Shown: one piece after another, positions 989 through 21,546 of the stretch
Layout: each line of letters begins with the position of its first letter
How positions within the stretch are numbered: the first letter of the stretch is position 1
Virus record (IMG/VR): IMGVR_UViG_3300047472_000454
Location: 1 to 39,311 of that record
DNA from: a virus
Strand: one strand, 5' to 3'
DNA length: 39,311 nt
The notes under the pieces: model-generated
The model's input: only the letters and a program-made list of their open reading frames with translations
The model's database searches: none
What the model was told of the DNA's origin: nothing
Made by a program: the position numbers and the translations under genes

Positions 989-1486
989 TTACGGCGCGAC
1001 GGACGGCAGCACGGACACGTCGTAGAACGTGCTCGTGACGCCGGCCGCGTCGAGCGCGGTCGTGCCCGGGGTGAAGGCGGCACTGGTGGTGGCGACCTTG
1101 ATCAGGCCGACCGCAGTGACGTTGACCGGCACGTCAGCGATGTTGCTCGCCACGCTGGACGCCGGCTGGCCGTTGGCCAGGGCCTCGGCGATCTGGTTGT
1201 TCGACGGTGCCGTGCCCTGGTAAGTCGACACCGTGCCGGCCGCGTCCAGGCCTACCGTGTAGTACAGGGTCTGGCCGACCGGCTGGATTGCATGGCCGGC
1301 GCTGAAGGCCTGGGCCGCGAGCGCCGCCTTCGCCTTGAAGACGCCGTCGACCAGGTAGGCATAGGCGCCGGTGGTCTTGAAGGTGGCGGCGCCGCCGGCG
1401 TTGATCGCCAGCGCTGCCGCGCTCAGGTTGCGGTAGCCTTCCAGCCTGCGGGTGATGCTCGAGTTGCTGTCTTTGAGTGTGGTCAT
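989..1486 (-). CDS. Putative capsid decoration/structural protein
   Basis: This 165-residue protein starts MTTLKDSNSSITRRLEGY at an ATG preceded by AAGGA. It is rich in Ala, Gly, Thr and Val and is predicted by eye to be mostly beta strand (for example TFKTTGAYAYLVDG and GQTLYYTVGLDAAGTVSTY). It has no signal peptide, membrane segment or catalytic motif. It lies directly downstream of the capsid gene and upstream of a strong terminator, the usual position for a head decoration protein. That role is inferred from position and composition only. Confidence 0.65.
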   Translation of the reverse strand: MTTLKDSNSSITRRLEGYRNLSAAALAINAGGAATFKTTGAYAYLVDGVFKAKAALAAQAFSAGHAIQPVGQTLYYTVGLDAAGTVSTYQGTAPSNNQIAEALANGQPASSVASNIADVPVNVTAVGLIKVATTSAAFTPGTTALDAAGVTSTFYDVSVLPSVAP

Positions 1487-1558
1487 GGTGGTCCTTGATG
1501 GGTTGCGTCAAACGAGCGGCGCACCACGGCGCGCCGCCACGTGCTGGCCGGAGGGGGC

Positions 1559-2560
1559 TTACGCCGTTACGGCAAATTCCCCGCGCACCATCCAGCTGTC
1601 GTTGAGGATGACTGCGCTTTGCATTGTCTTAAAGCCAATAAAACCGCGCTGGGCCAGCGGGTCGGCGCTCGACGGTTTCGGGTTGACGACCATCGGGGTC
1701 AACGCAAACATCCCTTTCAGGGCGACGATGCCGTAGGCGTTCTGCGCCACGAACAGCGTGGTGTAGACGTCCGCGTTGGTGCCGTCCGTGGAGGTCATCA
1801 AGCCCTTGGCGCCGCCGACGCTCAGGAACGGCGCGAAGATCGTGGACGACAGGTAGCGCACGTCCTCGACCTTGCCGATCTCGTTTTCATACGGGGTCAG
1901 GCTGCCGTACTTCTCGACCGGCACGAACACCGATTTGCCATCGGCGCCCAGCATGTTGCGGATGTCCGATTCCTGGTCCGGGTGGATCAGGCCGATGAAG
2001 GCCTTGGCCACCGGCTCGGTGCCGTAGGCGGCGGTGCTCTTGACCACCTTGGTGATCTGCTCGGCGTTCTGGCGTTTCAGGGCCTTGGTAATGCGGCGCT
2101 GGGCGGCCAGGGTGATCGGCGTGTTGACAGCGCTGCGGCTGGCGCCGTTCGCGTAGACGACGTTGGTGCCGGCGCGCAGGATGCCGAAGCGCATGCGCTC
2201 GACCATCTGCGCTGCCTGCTCGCCCAGCAGCTCGATCGCCTCGTTCAGGACGTTGTCCTCGTGCGTGTCCATCACGATGTCGCTGATCTGGATCAGGCCG
2301 CCGTATTGGGTCAGCAGGCAGGGCACGTCGGTCGCCGTCAGTTGCTGGGCGCCGGGCGTCACGCCTTCGACCAGGGCGGTCGGGGTCGTGTCGAGCGCGT
2401 TGTAGCGCCGGAACACGATGGTCTTGCTGGAGTTCGACGGCAGCGCCTTCGACTGGCCGAATTTTTCCAGCACCATGAATGGGATGGCGCGGGTCAGGAG
2501 CTGCTTTTCCGCGTAGGCCGCGGTCCGTGGCGAGATGTCGCCGTAGTTGGTTGCTGCCAT
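1559..2560 (-). CDS. Major capsid protein, N4-gp56 family
   Basis: This 333-residue protein starts MAATNYGDISPRTAAYAEKQ. Features I recognise from the N4-gp56 major capsid family are an N-terminal region with 'ISPRTAAYAEKQLLTRA', then 'LPSNSSKTIVFRRYNAL', 'LVEGVTPGAQQLT', 'QYGGLIQISDIVMDTHED', a mid-protein 'FIGLIHPDQESDIR' and a C-terminal 'DPLAQRGFIGFKTMQSA'. It would form the icosahedral shell. The ATG at 2560 follows AAGGAACT. The gene sits between a Gp49-family gene and a putative decoration gene, with a 237-base untranslated stretch upstream that is unusually long for this compact operon. Confidence 0.9.
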   Translation of the reverse strand: MAATNYGDISPRTAAYAEKQLLTRAIPFMVLEKFGQSKALPSNSSKTIVFRRYNALDTTPTALVEGVTPGAQQLTATDVPCLLTQYGGLIQISDIVMDTHEDNVLNEAIELLGEQAAQMVERMRFGILRAGTNVVYANGASRSAVNTPITLAAQRRITKALKRQNAEQITKVVKSTAAYGTEPVAKAFIGLIHPDQESDIRNMLGADGKSVFVPVEKYGSLTPYENEIGKVEDVRYLSSTIFAPFLSVGGAKGLMTSTDGTNADVYTTLFVAQNAYGIVALKGMFALTPMVVNPKPSSADPLAQRGFIGFKTMQSAVILNDSWMVRGEFAVTA

Positions 2561-17783: not shown

Positions 17784-18878
17784 CTAATCTCCGCAGAAGC
17801 ATTCGATATCCGGCTCGTCCTGCAGGGCGCTCATGTCGTAGGTGTTCGGGAACATATCGGATTGATTTACCGCGGAGTCGTACATGGCCTGATACGACGG
17901 CCGGTCATTGCGGAACGCTGCGCCGCCTGGCTTGGAACTCAGGCCCACCGCCTCCTGCTTTGCCCACCAGATTGCCCGGTCGGGCTTCGCACGGATGAGG
18001 GTCATCACCTTGCGCGGCCCCTTCAGGAAACACAGGTCGCAGTTTCCTTCTGCTGTCGTACCGTCGCGCGTGCGCAGACCCAGGTTGAACGGCTGCTGCT
18101 CCCAGAATGCTCCAACCTCCTTTTTGGTGATCCCGGCCTCGGCCAGCGGCATAGTCATCGTCTCGAGGACGGTTTCGGTCGACGGCCGCGCCCTGATCTT
18201 GGCGACGCGGCCCGGCTCGTCGGCACGGATGCCGACCATCTGATCCCAACCGTCGTCATCATCCTTCCAGCCACACAACGCCAAGTACTTGTGCATGGTG
18301 CGGATCTTCAGCTCGACCGTGCAAAACCGTGTTACTGGATTGGGCAGGTACTGCCGCTGGCGGATGATGGCCTCGAACGGCTCGCCGTTGCGGCTCGCGG
18401 TGTCGAAGTCGACCGCGGCGAACCCGTCCCCGTCGGCGCGGTATTCCAACCAGTGGATCTCGACGCCCCAATGCAGCCCGCAGTCGCGCACGAATTCCAG
18501 CGTTTCCTCTCGTTCCTTCCCGGTATTGGCGAAGCAAACCACAACATCCGGCGGCATCTGGCCGCCATGCGCCTGCAGTACGCGCCACAGCATGTACGCA
18601 GACGTGCGCCCGCCACTGAAACTGATCGCCGTGCGGTCCCTGATCTTGAATGGATCGCGGGTGCCCGTACTCGGCGGCGCGGCAGTTACCGCGTTGGCGG
18701 CCTTGTTCCGTTTGGCCGGTTGGCCGCGCATCAGCTTCAGCAACGTTTTTTTGTGGCCGTCCTTCTGCCTCCAACGAGTGAACGCCTTTGTCACCCATTC
18801 GTCGGTCAGATCCACCTGCGCGGTCAGGCGCATCATTTCATCCAGGGACTCGAAGCCCAGATCGTCAGCGTTACTCAT
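17784..18878 (-). CDS. PAPS-reductase-like PP-loop enzyme
   Basis: This 364-residue protein has the PP-loop SFSGGRTSAYML at about 86-97, followed by 'CFANTGKEREETLEF' and, later, 'PVTRFCTVELKIRTMHKYL' and 'GIRADEP', which are typical of the phosphoadenosine-phosphosulfate reductase family. A Cys pair in NCDLCFLKG and a C-terminal ECFCGD could hold a metal or an Fe-S cluster. PP-loop enzymes activate a substrate with ATP; relatives include the sulfur-transfer protein DndC. The true substrate here is unknown. An N-terminal extension of about 80 residues is helical. It lies between DNA-modification and nuclease genes, which hints at nucleic-acid chemistry. Confidence 0.75.
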   Translation of the reverse strand: MSNADDLGFESLDEMMRLTAQVDLTDEWVTKAFTRWRQKDGHKKTLLKLMRGQPAKRNKAANAVTAAPPSTGTRDPFKIRDRTAISFSGGRTSAYMLWRVLQAHGGQMPPDVVVCFANTGKEREETLEFVRDCGLHWGVEIHWLEYRADGDGFAAVDFDTASRNGEPFEAIIRQRQYLPNPVTRFCTVELKIRTMHKYLALCGWKDDDDGWDQMVGIRADEPGRVAKIRARPSTETVLETMTMPLAEAGITKKEVGAFWEQQPFNLGLRTRDGTTAEGNCDLCFLKGPRKVMTLIRAKPDRAIWWAKQEAVGLSSKPGGAAFRNDRPSYQAMYDSAVNQSDMFPNTYDMSALQDEPDIECFCGD

Positions 18879-19339
18879 CGTGTGTATGCCATGGTCTGCG
18901 CGAGCACGTTATCGAGGTCGGCGCGTGTATAGCCCCGCAGGATTCGGGTCAGCACCACGTCTATCACGGCGCTGAACAGCGCTTCGCGCTCGCTGTGCCC
19001 CATGGTCGAGAAATTCAGGCTGCGCGCCACCGTGCGTACCCGGCCGCGGATGTCGACGTACACATCGTAGTAGCCGGCCAGGATCGTCACGTCTTTCCGA
19101 AACTGGTCGAAGTTCTTGCGCACCAGCTGGTCCAGGTAGTACACGTCGACCGGCTCCCATACGTTGAATGCGTGCTGGAACAGCGACATCAGCTTGCGGT
19201 GGAAGGCGGGGTTGTTGTACTCGCGCACGTGCGCCTTGAAACCGGCATCGAGCGCGAAGCCCTGGATATAGTCAGCCGATGGCTGGTCGATCGGCACCAG
19301 GATGCCGCCGGCGGCCTTGGCCAGGTACAGGTCAGGCAT
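18875..19339 (-). CDS. DUF1367-like protein (lambda nin-region type)
   Basis: This 154-residue protein starts MPDLYLAKAAGGILVPIDQP. It matches the pattern of the DUF1367 family, in particular 'NPAFHRKLMSLFQHAFNVWE' and the C-terminal 'LNFSTMGHSEREALFSAVID'. Members are common in the nin-like regions of temperate phages; their function is unknown, perhaps in recombination. The start ATG overlaps the end of the methyltransferase gene by 8 bases; a longer frame beginning further upstream is less likely. It overlaps the next gene by 4 bases. Confidence 0.75.
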   Translation of the reverse strand: MPDLYLAKAAGGILVPIDQPSADYIQGFALDAGFKAHVREYNNPAFHRKLMSLFQHAFNVWEPVDVYYLDQLVRKNFDQFRKDVTILAGYYDVYVDIRGRVRTVARSLNFSTMGHSEREALFSAVIDVVLTRILRGYTRADLDNVLAQTMAYTR

Positions 19340-21098
19340 GGGCCACCCCCACGGCGCACGGTTCGTTGGCCGGTTCGGCAATGGCCGCGTGGATGCGGGC
19401 GCCGATCCGGCGCACTACAGGGATCGCCCAGCTGTTGCCGAGCGCCTTGTAACGCGGGCCATCTGCAGCGGCGCGGCATACCTGGTCAAATGTCATCACG
19501 CCACCGCGCAGGAGGTACTTGATCCAGTCCTGCTCGAGCTTTTCCATGCGAACGGCGCGGCCGAACGGGATCAGTGTGTAATCGTCGGGGAAGCCCTGCA
19601 GGCGCTCGCACTCCCGCGGCGTCAAACGGCGCACGGCCATGCCGCCAGGCGCCACATACGTTGTCTGCTTCATGCCCGGCTGCGCCGCCAGGGCGCCCGA
19701 TACCTCGCCGTCACCGCCAACAAGTCGCACCTCGTCTCGGCTGTTCTGCGCGAAAGCGAACGAGGCCACAATCGGCTGCCCGCGCCCGGTTCCGTCCTCG
19801 CTGGCGTCAAACCCTTCGGCCTTGAGGGTGTGGGTGACGTCGCCGGTAATGCACACCGCCAGTTGCCCGCCCGCGTTGGCGTGGCTCCCCTGATGCCCCA
19901 TGGCGCGCATTGCCGGTGCCAGTTCCACCGATGCATCGGCGCCGTAGTCCTTGCAACTGAACGCGACCGCCTGCACTTCGGCGCGTGCTTCCAGCGTATA
20001 GGCGATGTATTCCTGCACGCCGACGCCGTCCGGGCCGCTGGCCGGGTTGGTGCGCAGCGCGCCGGCCTGGATGGCGTAGCTGGTCGGAATCAGGTGGCTA
20101 TGGTTGTGCGTCATGTCTTGGCCGCTGCATCCCTGCAGGCGGCCATAGCTGGCGTCCAGGGTGGCGGCGACAGGTTGCACCAGGAAGGTTTCGCTCTCAA
20201 AATCGAGCCTGCCGCTGCCGCTGCTGCATGCGTTGCGCGCGGTCGCTACGTCAATAGGGCCGGACTGGTTGTTTCCTCCGTAGGCGACGGGCTGAAGGTG
20301 TCCGCCTCGTGCGTGGTCGACGTCGCTACCTCCATCAGTGCTTCGTAGAGTGCCGGCGGGAGCGTCTTGCCCCGTTTGTCGGCGCGGCGCAGTATCCCGG
20401 CGCACGCCGTCGAACTCAAAAAGTACCGCCGCGGGATCGAACCCCGCTCGAGCACTTGCGACAACGAACACACGCTTGCGTCGTTGGGCCACTCCGAAAT
20501 ATTGGGCATCGAGGATCCGCCATGCGACTGCTCGCTGGGGTCCAATGACAACACCAGACTTCGGCCAACCGAGTGCGTGCTGGCCGGTCTTCTTGTCCCA
20601 CTTCCAGTAGCGTCCAGACTTGCCAGCAGCGGGGCAAGGCTCGGGCACCAGTGCTTCATCCTCACCTGCCAGTCCCGCGAGAAAGCAGCCGAACGCGTTA
20701 TCTTTGGTGGTGAGTACGCCGGGGACGTTCTCCCATTTGATGACGCAAGGAGGAAGTCCATTTGCTGCTCGTTGGATGTCGATTTCATCGGCGATCTCGC
20801 AGAAGGTCATGGAAAGGTTGCCGCGCGCATCGTTGAGCGAATTGCGCAGGCCGGCGATGGAAAACGCCTGGCAGGGGGTGCCACCAGTGAACACGTCGGG
20901 AGCGAACAGGGTGCCGTTGCGCAGCAGTCGCGGGATATCCAGCATGTTGCCCAGGTTCGGCATATCAGGATAGTGGTAGGCCAGCAGTGCGCAGGGGAAC
21001 GGTTCGATCTCGGACGCCCACACACCCTTCCAGCCGAGCGGGTTCCATGCGACGCTGGCCGCGTCGATACCGGAGCAAACAGACCCGAACGTAATCAT
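19332..21098 (-). CDS. C5-cytosine DNA methyltransferase with large target region
   Basis: This 588-residue protein carries the C5 methyltransferase motifs in order: SVCSGIDAAS (I) at 6-15, TGGTPCQAFS (IV) with the catalytic Cys at 76, WENVPG (VI) at 122-127, QRRKRVFVVA (VIII) at 205-214, and near the end LTPRECERLQGFPDDYT (IX) and ALGNSWAIPV (X). About 265 residues lie between VIII and IX, far more than in a single-specificity enzyme. They contain recurring short patterns such as PAGTLRST, VAATLDAS, IAYTLEAR and VTHTLKAE, each followed by an 'IVA'-like strand, suggesting several target-recognition modules. It probably protects phage DNA from host restriction. Confidence 0.9.
   Translation of the reverse strand: MITFGSVCSGIDAASVAWNPLGWKGVWASEIEPFPCALLAYHYPDMPNLGNMLDIPRLLRNGTLFAPDVFTGGTPCQAFSIAGLRNSLNDARGNLSMTFCEIADEIDIQRAANGLPPCVIKWENVPGVLTTKDNAFGCFLAGLAGEDEALVPEPCPAAGKSGRYWKWDKKTGQHALGWPKSGVVIGPQRAVAWRILDAQYFGVAQRRKRVFVVASARAGFDPAAVLFEFDGVRRDTAPRRQTGQDAPAGTLRSTDGGSDVDHARGGHLQPVAYGGNNQSGPIDVATARNACSSGSGRLDFESETFLVQPVAATLDASYGRLQGCSGQDMTHNHSHLIPTSYAIQAGALRTNPASGPDGVGVQEYIAYTLEARAEVQAVAFSCKDYGADASVELAPAMRAMGHQGSHANAGGQLAVCITGDVTHTLKAEGFDASEDGTGRGQPIVASFAFAQNSRDEVRLVGGDGEVSGALAAQPGMKQTTYVAPGGMAVRRLTPRECERLQGFPDDYTLIPFGRAVRMEKLEQDWIKYLLRGGVMTFDQVCRAAADGPRYKALGNSWAIPVVRRIGARIHAAIAEPANEPCAVGVAHA
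20246..20788 (-). CDS. Nested alternate-frame ORF inside the C5 methyltransferase gene
   Basis: A 180-codon frame on the same strand, shifted one base from the methyltransferase, starts MKSTSNEQQMDFLLASSNGR. It is not random-looking: SPAYSPPKITRSAAFSRDWQ, EWPNDASVCSLSQVLERG and PRRYFLSSTACAGILRRADK resemble a protein I have repeatedly seen annotated overlapping phage cytosine methyltransferases. The first start has only a weak ribosome site; Met10 is an alternative. It could be a true second protein, or a by-product of conserved methyltransferase codons. Confidence 0.5.
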   Translation of the reverse strand: MKSTSNEQQMDFLLASSNGRTSPAYSPPKITRSAAFSRDWQVRMKHWCPSLAPLLASLDATGSGTRRPASTHSVGRSLVLSLDPSEQSHGGSSMPNISEWPNDASVCSLSQVLERGSIPRRYFLSSTACAGILRRADKRGKTLPPALYEALMEVATSTTHEADTFSPSPTEETTSPALLT

Positions 21099-21111
21099 GT
21101 CGCCGCTTCCG

Positions 21112-21546
21112 TCATGGCGAGCCCTTCCCGGCCGGCCCGAACAGGGCCGCCACCAGGTCCATGCGCTGCACCGGCGGCGCCGGCTTGAGCACCGTCCGCG
21201 CGTCCTTCTTGCGAAACGGCGCCGGGTTGGCCGCCGGGGCAGCGCCCGATGCCGGGGCCGGCTGGTAGGTGTCCGGTCCCGATCCGTAGATGTTCGCGCG
21301 GTGCTTGATCGCCACGACCTTGCCGGTCGCGCGCAGGGCCAGCGTGTAGCCGTTCAGGGTGGTCATCGGCAGACCGAGGGCGGCACCGATCCTGGCAGCG
21401 GCGCAGCCGGGGTGCGCCACGATATAGGCCAGCACGCGCTCGAGCGCTTCCTGCTTCCTGGCCGTGGCCTTGCTGGTGTGCCGACCGCGGCTCGAGCAGC
21501 GTGCAGCGAAGTTGGCGAAGACTGGCGCGGCTGGGTCGTCGGTCAT
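21112..21546 (-). CDS. Winged-helix protein of the early operon
   Basis: This 144-residue protein starts MTDDPAAPVFANFAARCSSR. A winged-helix region occupies about 35-85 (RKQEALERVLAYIVAHPGCA then AARIGAALGLPMTTLNGYTL), followed by a Pro/Ala-rich tail ending in VAALFGPAGKGSP. It is the second gene of the minus-strand early operon after the Cro-like gene, so it is likely an early regulator. The chosen ATG is preceded by GCGAGA; a long upstream extension of the frame runs across the Cro-like gene and is rejected. Confidence 0.6.
   Translation of the reverse strand: MTDDPAAPVFANFAARCSSRGRHTSKATARKQEALERVLAYIVAHPGCAAARIGAALGLPMTTLNGYTLALRATGKVVAIKHRANIYGSGPDTYQPAPASGAAPAANPAPFRKKDARTVLKPAPPVQRMDLVAALFGPAGKGSP

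Follow-up and report, generated by a model that had tools for sequence, protein, structure and literature searches.

A conserved gene nested in the +1 frame of phage C5 cytosine methyltransferase genes

Does a long open frame inside a phage cytosine methyltransferase gene encode a second protein, and if so, what might that protein do? The question is raised by the window (the whole stretch of 39,311 nucleotides that was analysed, an IMG/VR virus record), in which a C5 cytosine methyltransferase gene of 588 amino acids (19332-21098, minus strand) matches PF00145 (E=4.6e-32) and PHROG 116 (E=1.2e-80) and keeps motif IX, as RRLTPRECERLQGFPDDYT, and motif X in its own frame. The original prediction held that an ORF nested in this gene is a real overlapping gene and placed it exactly: it runs on the minus strand from an ATG at 20788 to 20246 (180 codons plus stop), in frame +1 relative to the methyltransferase, is uninterrupted, and contains both of the peptides that had been quoted from it. 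The predicted span of motifs VI to VIII was right as far as it went, since the ORF lies over methyltransferase codons ~104-284, from ENV of motif VI through QRRKR of motif VIII (residues 205-209; 20472-20486, minus strand), but it continues into the start of the variable region, and the strongest constraint falls on 48 codons (20324-20467, minus strand) directly after motif VIII. These codons form the conserved core of the nested protein (amino acids 108-155, SLSQVLERGSIPRRYFLSSTACAGILRRADKRGKTLPPALYEALMEVA), which is predicted to be helical with pLDDT 88-97 across most of its length.

The length of the ORF is itself within chance, as 7.7% of 5000 synonymous shuffles gave an alternative-frame ORF at least as long, and it was discarded as evidence; because such a length is unremarkable in a GC-rich gene, the case was built on comparison. 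Antisense open frames also cross the methyltransferase gene in the window (19302-20348, plus strand, 348 amino acids; 20367-21188, plus strand, 273 amino acids) and are likely a GC effect. The downstream neighbours are a NinB/Orf-like recombination mediator (18875-19381, minus strand; PHROG 319), which overlaps the methyltransferase end, and a PAPS-reductase-like protein (17784-18878, minus strand; PHROG 424).

Distribution and annotation of the nested frame

A tblastn search with the nested peptide matched 149 phage records, and a search with the core alone returned 140 records from phages and 533 from plasmids. The plasmids are mostly from E. coli, and the annotation at their core matches is mainly Dam-family methyltransferase. 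The phage matches include phages of Vibrio, Pectobacterium, Pseudomonas, Aeromonas, Mycobacterium, Streptococcus, Ruminococcus, and Faecalibacterium. With hundreds of further loci from scans of IMG/VR and GTDB genomes, the nested gene extends over phages and prophages of Proteobacteria, Firmicutes, Actinobacteria, and Acidobacteria, and over P1-like plasmids of E. coli. All 337 nested-core hits sit inside a C5 methyltransferase gene or its remnant, and no core outside such a gene or remnant was found among these hits and six whole bacterial genomes. Motif VIII lies just upstream in the expected frame, by a simple pattern, in 329 of the 337 loci; in the remaining eight, motif VIII is of a variant form, the sequence contains a run of N, or the methyltransferase has undergone deletion or rearrangement. 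In the median locus the nested frame is open for ~79 codons ahead of the aligned core and stops a few codons past it, and the protein is about 130-200 amino acids long in relatives.

The bifunctional methyltransferase gene dmt of phage P1 carries a homologue of 157 amino acids in the same +1 frame (AF234172.1, about 66728-67198), with peptides such as YFLSSKACAGILR in its predicted product, but the record annotates Dmt alone there and leaves the nested ORF unannotated. The original prediction had also pointed to separately annotated proteins overlapping phage cytosine methyltransferases. This point needs refinement: separate annotation of the nested product is rare at most, and the phage records that were opened have no CDS of its own for it, although PHROG 16143 does contain such sequences, matching 59 of the 78 family members and covering the core in those examined. 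That family is named 'DNA methyltransferase' after the enzyme, whereas the matched stretch is the nested peptide, and the name was probably inherited from the annotation of the host gene. Genome annotation drops the nested gene because it overlaps a known one. A literature search found no paper on a nested overlap in phage methyltransferases, and there are few DNA phages in which comparison decisively supports a long nested gene.

Several single loci depart from the common arrangement. An Oscillibacter locus (L446) has a stop inside the core in the methyltransferase frame and an intact nested frame, and in locus L449 the nested match was reported with one internal TAA. In Vibrio phage 1.088.O (L014:2413-3027) the methyltransferase has an internal deletion that spares the segment following motif VIII and part of the nested core. 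The +1 frame of a Pseudobacteroides C5 methyltransferase (L451) contains STLSLIDILETKVPEKYFLSPEA, which is like the nested core, and the variable region in its methyltransferase frame looks to be of another type.

Selection and translation start in the nested frame

The first sets of loci were picked through the nested peptide and were therefore biased, so the key tests were repeated on loci collected by the methyltransferase N-terminus alone, and the downstream tests were run on the locus sequences themselves rather than on the alignment that had located them. The nested core is kept in all 102 unbiased loci that reach motif VIII, a count that covers related sequences rather than independent events and so overstates independence; four other loci run into a contig edge or are interrupted ahead of motif VIII. 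After dereplication to 82 loci, the core is open in every one (against 53% of shuffles), and 123 nested codons are open in 99% of them (against 12%). The score against the nested-core HMM has a median of 102 bits in these loci, compared with a median of 12 and a maximum of 53 after shuffling.

The core follows the pattern SLSQVLE..IPxRYFLSxxACxGILRRAxxRGKxLPxxLxxALxxVA, with near-invariant L, S, L, YFLS, AC, GILRRA, R, LP, L, and AL across 335 loci, and this peptide is conserved across phyla where the underlying DNA is not. Nucleotide entropy in the core is lowest (0.70) at nested position 2, which is the methyltransferase wobble base, and highest (1.37) at nested position 3, which is methyltransferase position 1; over motif VIII, just upstream, the usual methyltransferase order holds, with a wobble entropy of 1.29. 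Mean entropy in the core is 1.21 bits in the nested frame and 2.00 bits in the methyltransferase frame. Along the gene, methyltransferase synonymous divergence stands at ~0.7-0.9 of its maximum, falls close to where the nested ORF begins, is down to about 0.07-0.4 within the core, and rises again past the nested stop in the lineages examined.

Substitution rates per site were obtained from independent nearest pairs for four classes, named by their effect on the methyltransferase and then on the nested protein (S, silent; N, changing). The rates were SS 0.534, SN 0.102, NS 0.224, and NN 0.064 in the core; SS 0.508, SN 0.247, NS 0.111, and NN 0.068 in the upstream overlap; and SS 0.397, SN 0.467, NS 0.080, and NN 0.068 in the N-terminus, which served as control. 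Relative to the control, methyltransferase-synonymous changes are thus 4.6-fold lower in the core, and changes that are silent in the nested frame and alter the methyltransferase are 2.8-fold higher. These rates give a nested-frame dN/dS of about 0.2-0.3 in the core, a sign of purifying selection on the nested protein, compared with 0.5-0.6 in the upstream overlap and about 0.85-1.2 in the control. For the methyltransferase, constraint is looser within the core, with 0.4-0.6 there against 0.15-0.2. Since constraint weakens upstream of the core, conservation of the N-terminal half of the nested protein is partly imposed by the methyltransferase. The per-frame comparison of synonymous constraint across homologous loci, which the original prediction had proposed, thus came out in favour of dual coding: core substitutions are explained better by the nested frame than by the methyltransferase frame, and none of the 82 dereplicated loci has a stop in the core.

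The start of the nested gene leaves its own trace in the methyltransferase codons. Methyltransferase residues A-[N/D]-x-I-D make the nested ATG in the lineage that includes the window and P1. Their N/D codon takes the form AAT or GAT in 58 of 60 loci, compared with 36% and 41% for these residues outside the overlap. The Clostridia lineage forms the ATG through a biased methyltransferase codon in 43 of 43 loci, and the third lineage, in which the nested start lies ahead of motif IV, uses GAT in 22 of 22 (against 35% elsewhere); across the three lineages, the needed codon accounts for only about 35-55% of the same residues elsewhere. The Shine-Dalgarno sequence of the Clostridia lineage (GAGG) is supplied by an Arg codon, which is AGG in 61 of 61 loci, against 12% elsewhere, and AAGGA precedes the start at the usual distance in several examples shown from the third lineage. 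The window itself has the conserved ATG (20786-20788, minus strand) and a weak Shine-Dalgarno-like GAG (20796-20798, minus strand) seven bases 5' of it, in the sequence GCGAGATCGCCGATG. Judged by this codon usage, the nested gene has its own conserved start codon. Internal initiation on the methyltransferase mRNA would result in both proteins being made together.

Three readings that do without an independently started gene can be weighed against these data. One takes the frame as a by-product of a long open stretch in a GC-rich gene, its peptide conservation mirroring that of the methyltransferase; the chance-compatible ORF length agrees with this, as does the fact that some N-terminal peptide similarity follows from motifs VI-VIII, but shuffles that preserve the methyltransferase protein lose the core and the core is the more conserved in the nested frame, which leaves this reading scarcely credible. 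A nucleotide-level element (RNA structure, regulatory or recombination site) would account for the strong suppression of methyltransferase-silent changes and is nevertheless very improbable, because the suppression is unequal and nested-silent changes are frequent (NS 0.224 and SS 0.534 against SN 0.102 and NN 0.064); nested third positions vary most, and it is the peptide, not the DNA, that is conserved across phyla. The high rates at nested-silent sites exclude a purely nucleotide-level element. Somewhat less improbable, though still a poor prospect, is expression of the alternative frame as a frameshift product in which motifs I-VIII would run on into the nested core, giving the enzyme a different C-terminus. 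Such an arrangement is seen in Faecalibacterium phage FP_Toutatis (L008:2078-2683), where the N-terminal part of the methyltransferase is in frame with the nested core and the whole is annotated as one 'DNA methyltransferase', but this locus may represent a frameshift, a broken or decayed gene, or a sequencing error, and the conserved ATG, the Shine-Dalgarno sequences, and the onset of synonymous constraint at the beginning of the nested ORF favour internal initiation over frameshifting. The number and breadth of the lineages make chance untenable. The nested ORF is thus almost certainly a real, widespread, and unannotated gene, as originally predicted, and on this comparative evidence two proteins, each subject to selection, are encoded by the same DNA.

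Nature and possible role of the nested protein

In the AlphaFold2 prediction the N-terminal half is disordered, whereas the core forms helices with high confidence (residues 121-160, pLDDT 88-97). Foldseek and VIA-align returned only helical-hairpin matches to this model, the best (Z 4.7) being to sigma factor domain 2, and these were set aside as a common arrangement. No sequence match to the nested protein of the window was found in Pfam, NCBIfam, or the PDB, and one relative had a marginal Pfam match to DUF4699. The core does resemble the segment LKDFLExxVDEKYYISQEK that follows motif VIII in another group of phage C5 methyltransferases (hhalign score 37, P 1.7e-5; 200 column permutations gave 10.6 +/- 1.9 with a maximum of 17.6, and the reversed control 8.3). 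This segment, as LKDFLExxVDEKYYIS, aligns with M.HhaI at ~196-208, also after motif VIII. The model of the window methyltransferase, built from a shallow alignment, is mostly confident to about residue 228 and lacks confident structure over residues 229-489, so that much of the core lies opposite poorly structured methyltransferase sequence.

The N-terminus of some family members carries a second recognizable feature. The sliding clamp (DnaN) is bound through a consensus Q-phi-x-[L/M]-[F/L] or a hexameric form (after PMC11139829). An N-terminal motif of the Q[LMI]x[LIM]F type occurs in 58 of 291 dereplicated loci, where synonymous shuffles predict 0.15, and it is encoded over 34 different methyltransferase hexapeptides in forms such as QLTMF, QLSIF, QLDLF, QLGLF, or similar; mycobacteriophage Lucky2013 has a member with QLDLF. 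The published consensus is present in 24 of 60 loci of the window/P1 lineage (0.4 expected), in 2 of 22 of the third lineage, and in none of 43 of the Clostridia lineage. The window protein falls below this consensus, having only the degenerate form QMDFL (20750-20764, minus strand). The motif may tether some members to the replication clamp and is not a feature of the whole family.

The frequency of this motif would suit a real nested gene with a product that works independently of the methyltransferase, for example by binding DnaN and so steering or blocking replication of the host; sharing a locus would then only couple expression. We regard this as unlikely, because conservation peaks in the C-terminal core, a part similar to a methyltransferase segment, because the clamp motif is missing from an entire lineage and degenerate in the window, and because none of the 337 hits showed a nested core without a methyltransferase gene or remnant. 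The co-occurrence, the shared coding DNA, the methyltransferase-like core, and the precedent of M.EcoHK31I together suggest instead that the nested protein likely serves the methyltransferase in whose gene it lies as a small partner subunit. In other C5 methyltransferases the catalytic and target-recognition domains are linked by a segment that the core resembles; here the nested protein would provide such a segment in trans, and the two proteins would work in the manner of the two-polypeptide M.EcoHK31I. Some family members may, in addition, be attached to the sliding clamp of the host through a Q-L-x-[LIM]-F peptide at the N-terminus of the nested protein. Counting against a subunit role, the window methyltransferase has no obvious missing catalytic motif, and the N-terminal half of the nested protein is predicted to be disordered.

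If the nested protein is a methyltransferase subunit, cloned phage C5 methyltransferases that were recoded (codon-optimised) have lost it, and this loss could explain inactive or altered enzymes. A broader proposal, which we put forward tentatively, is that large classes of phage C5 methyltransferases, P1 Dmt included, might be two-protein enzymes encoded by one DNA in two frames, the nested protein contributing in trans part of the half that recognizes DNA and, in many lineages, bearing a clamp-binding peptide as well, through which methylation would be directed to the replication fork.

Relation to known two-polypeptide methyltransferases

The small-subunit gene of M.EcoHK31I is reportedly located inside the large-subunit gene in the other frame, an arrangement credited to Lee, Kam and Shaw in 1995. 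As for a second polypeptide encoded at the locus of the large subunit, all 337 nested-core hits lie within a C5 methyltransferase gene or its remnant. M.EcoHK31I (YGGCCR) is a C5 methyltransferase of one large and one small polypeptide, in which motif IX is present in the small subunit only and missing from the large one (PMC3404938). In contrast, the window methyltransferase keeps motifs IX and X in frame, and the nested core resembles the segment after motif VIII; the class of the window is therefore not a member of the M.EcoHK31I type and is similar to it in manner only. M.AquI is a split C5 methyltransferase whose two polypeptides share the target-recognition region (PMC3404938). It differs in that motifs I-VIII are split from IX-X, each motif being in one polypeptide, whereas the methyltransferase frame of the window has I-VIII, IX, and X.

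A second class of phage C5 methyltransferases (L453, L564-L643) also contains a long nested ORF in the +1 frame, which belongs to PHROG 1008 and has an N-terminal QLTLF; in L453 it occupies 1495-2298 (minus strand) within a methyltransferase gene at 1436-2536 (minus strand). The overlap in this class is constrained as well (SN 0.269 against 0.562). Unlike the nested proteins of the window class, those of PHROG 1008 lack the SLSQILE..YFLS core and end in a motif-IX-like NPxWVEWLMGFPxGWTDL. Of 48 complete loci whose methyltransferase frame contains motif X, 47 have motif-IX-like sequence in the nested frame alone, and this second class accordingly has the pattern of M.EcoHK31I, with motif IX in the nested, small-subunit frame and absent from that of the methyltransferase.
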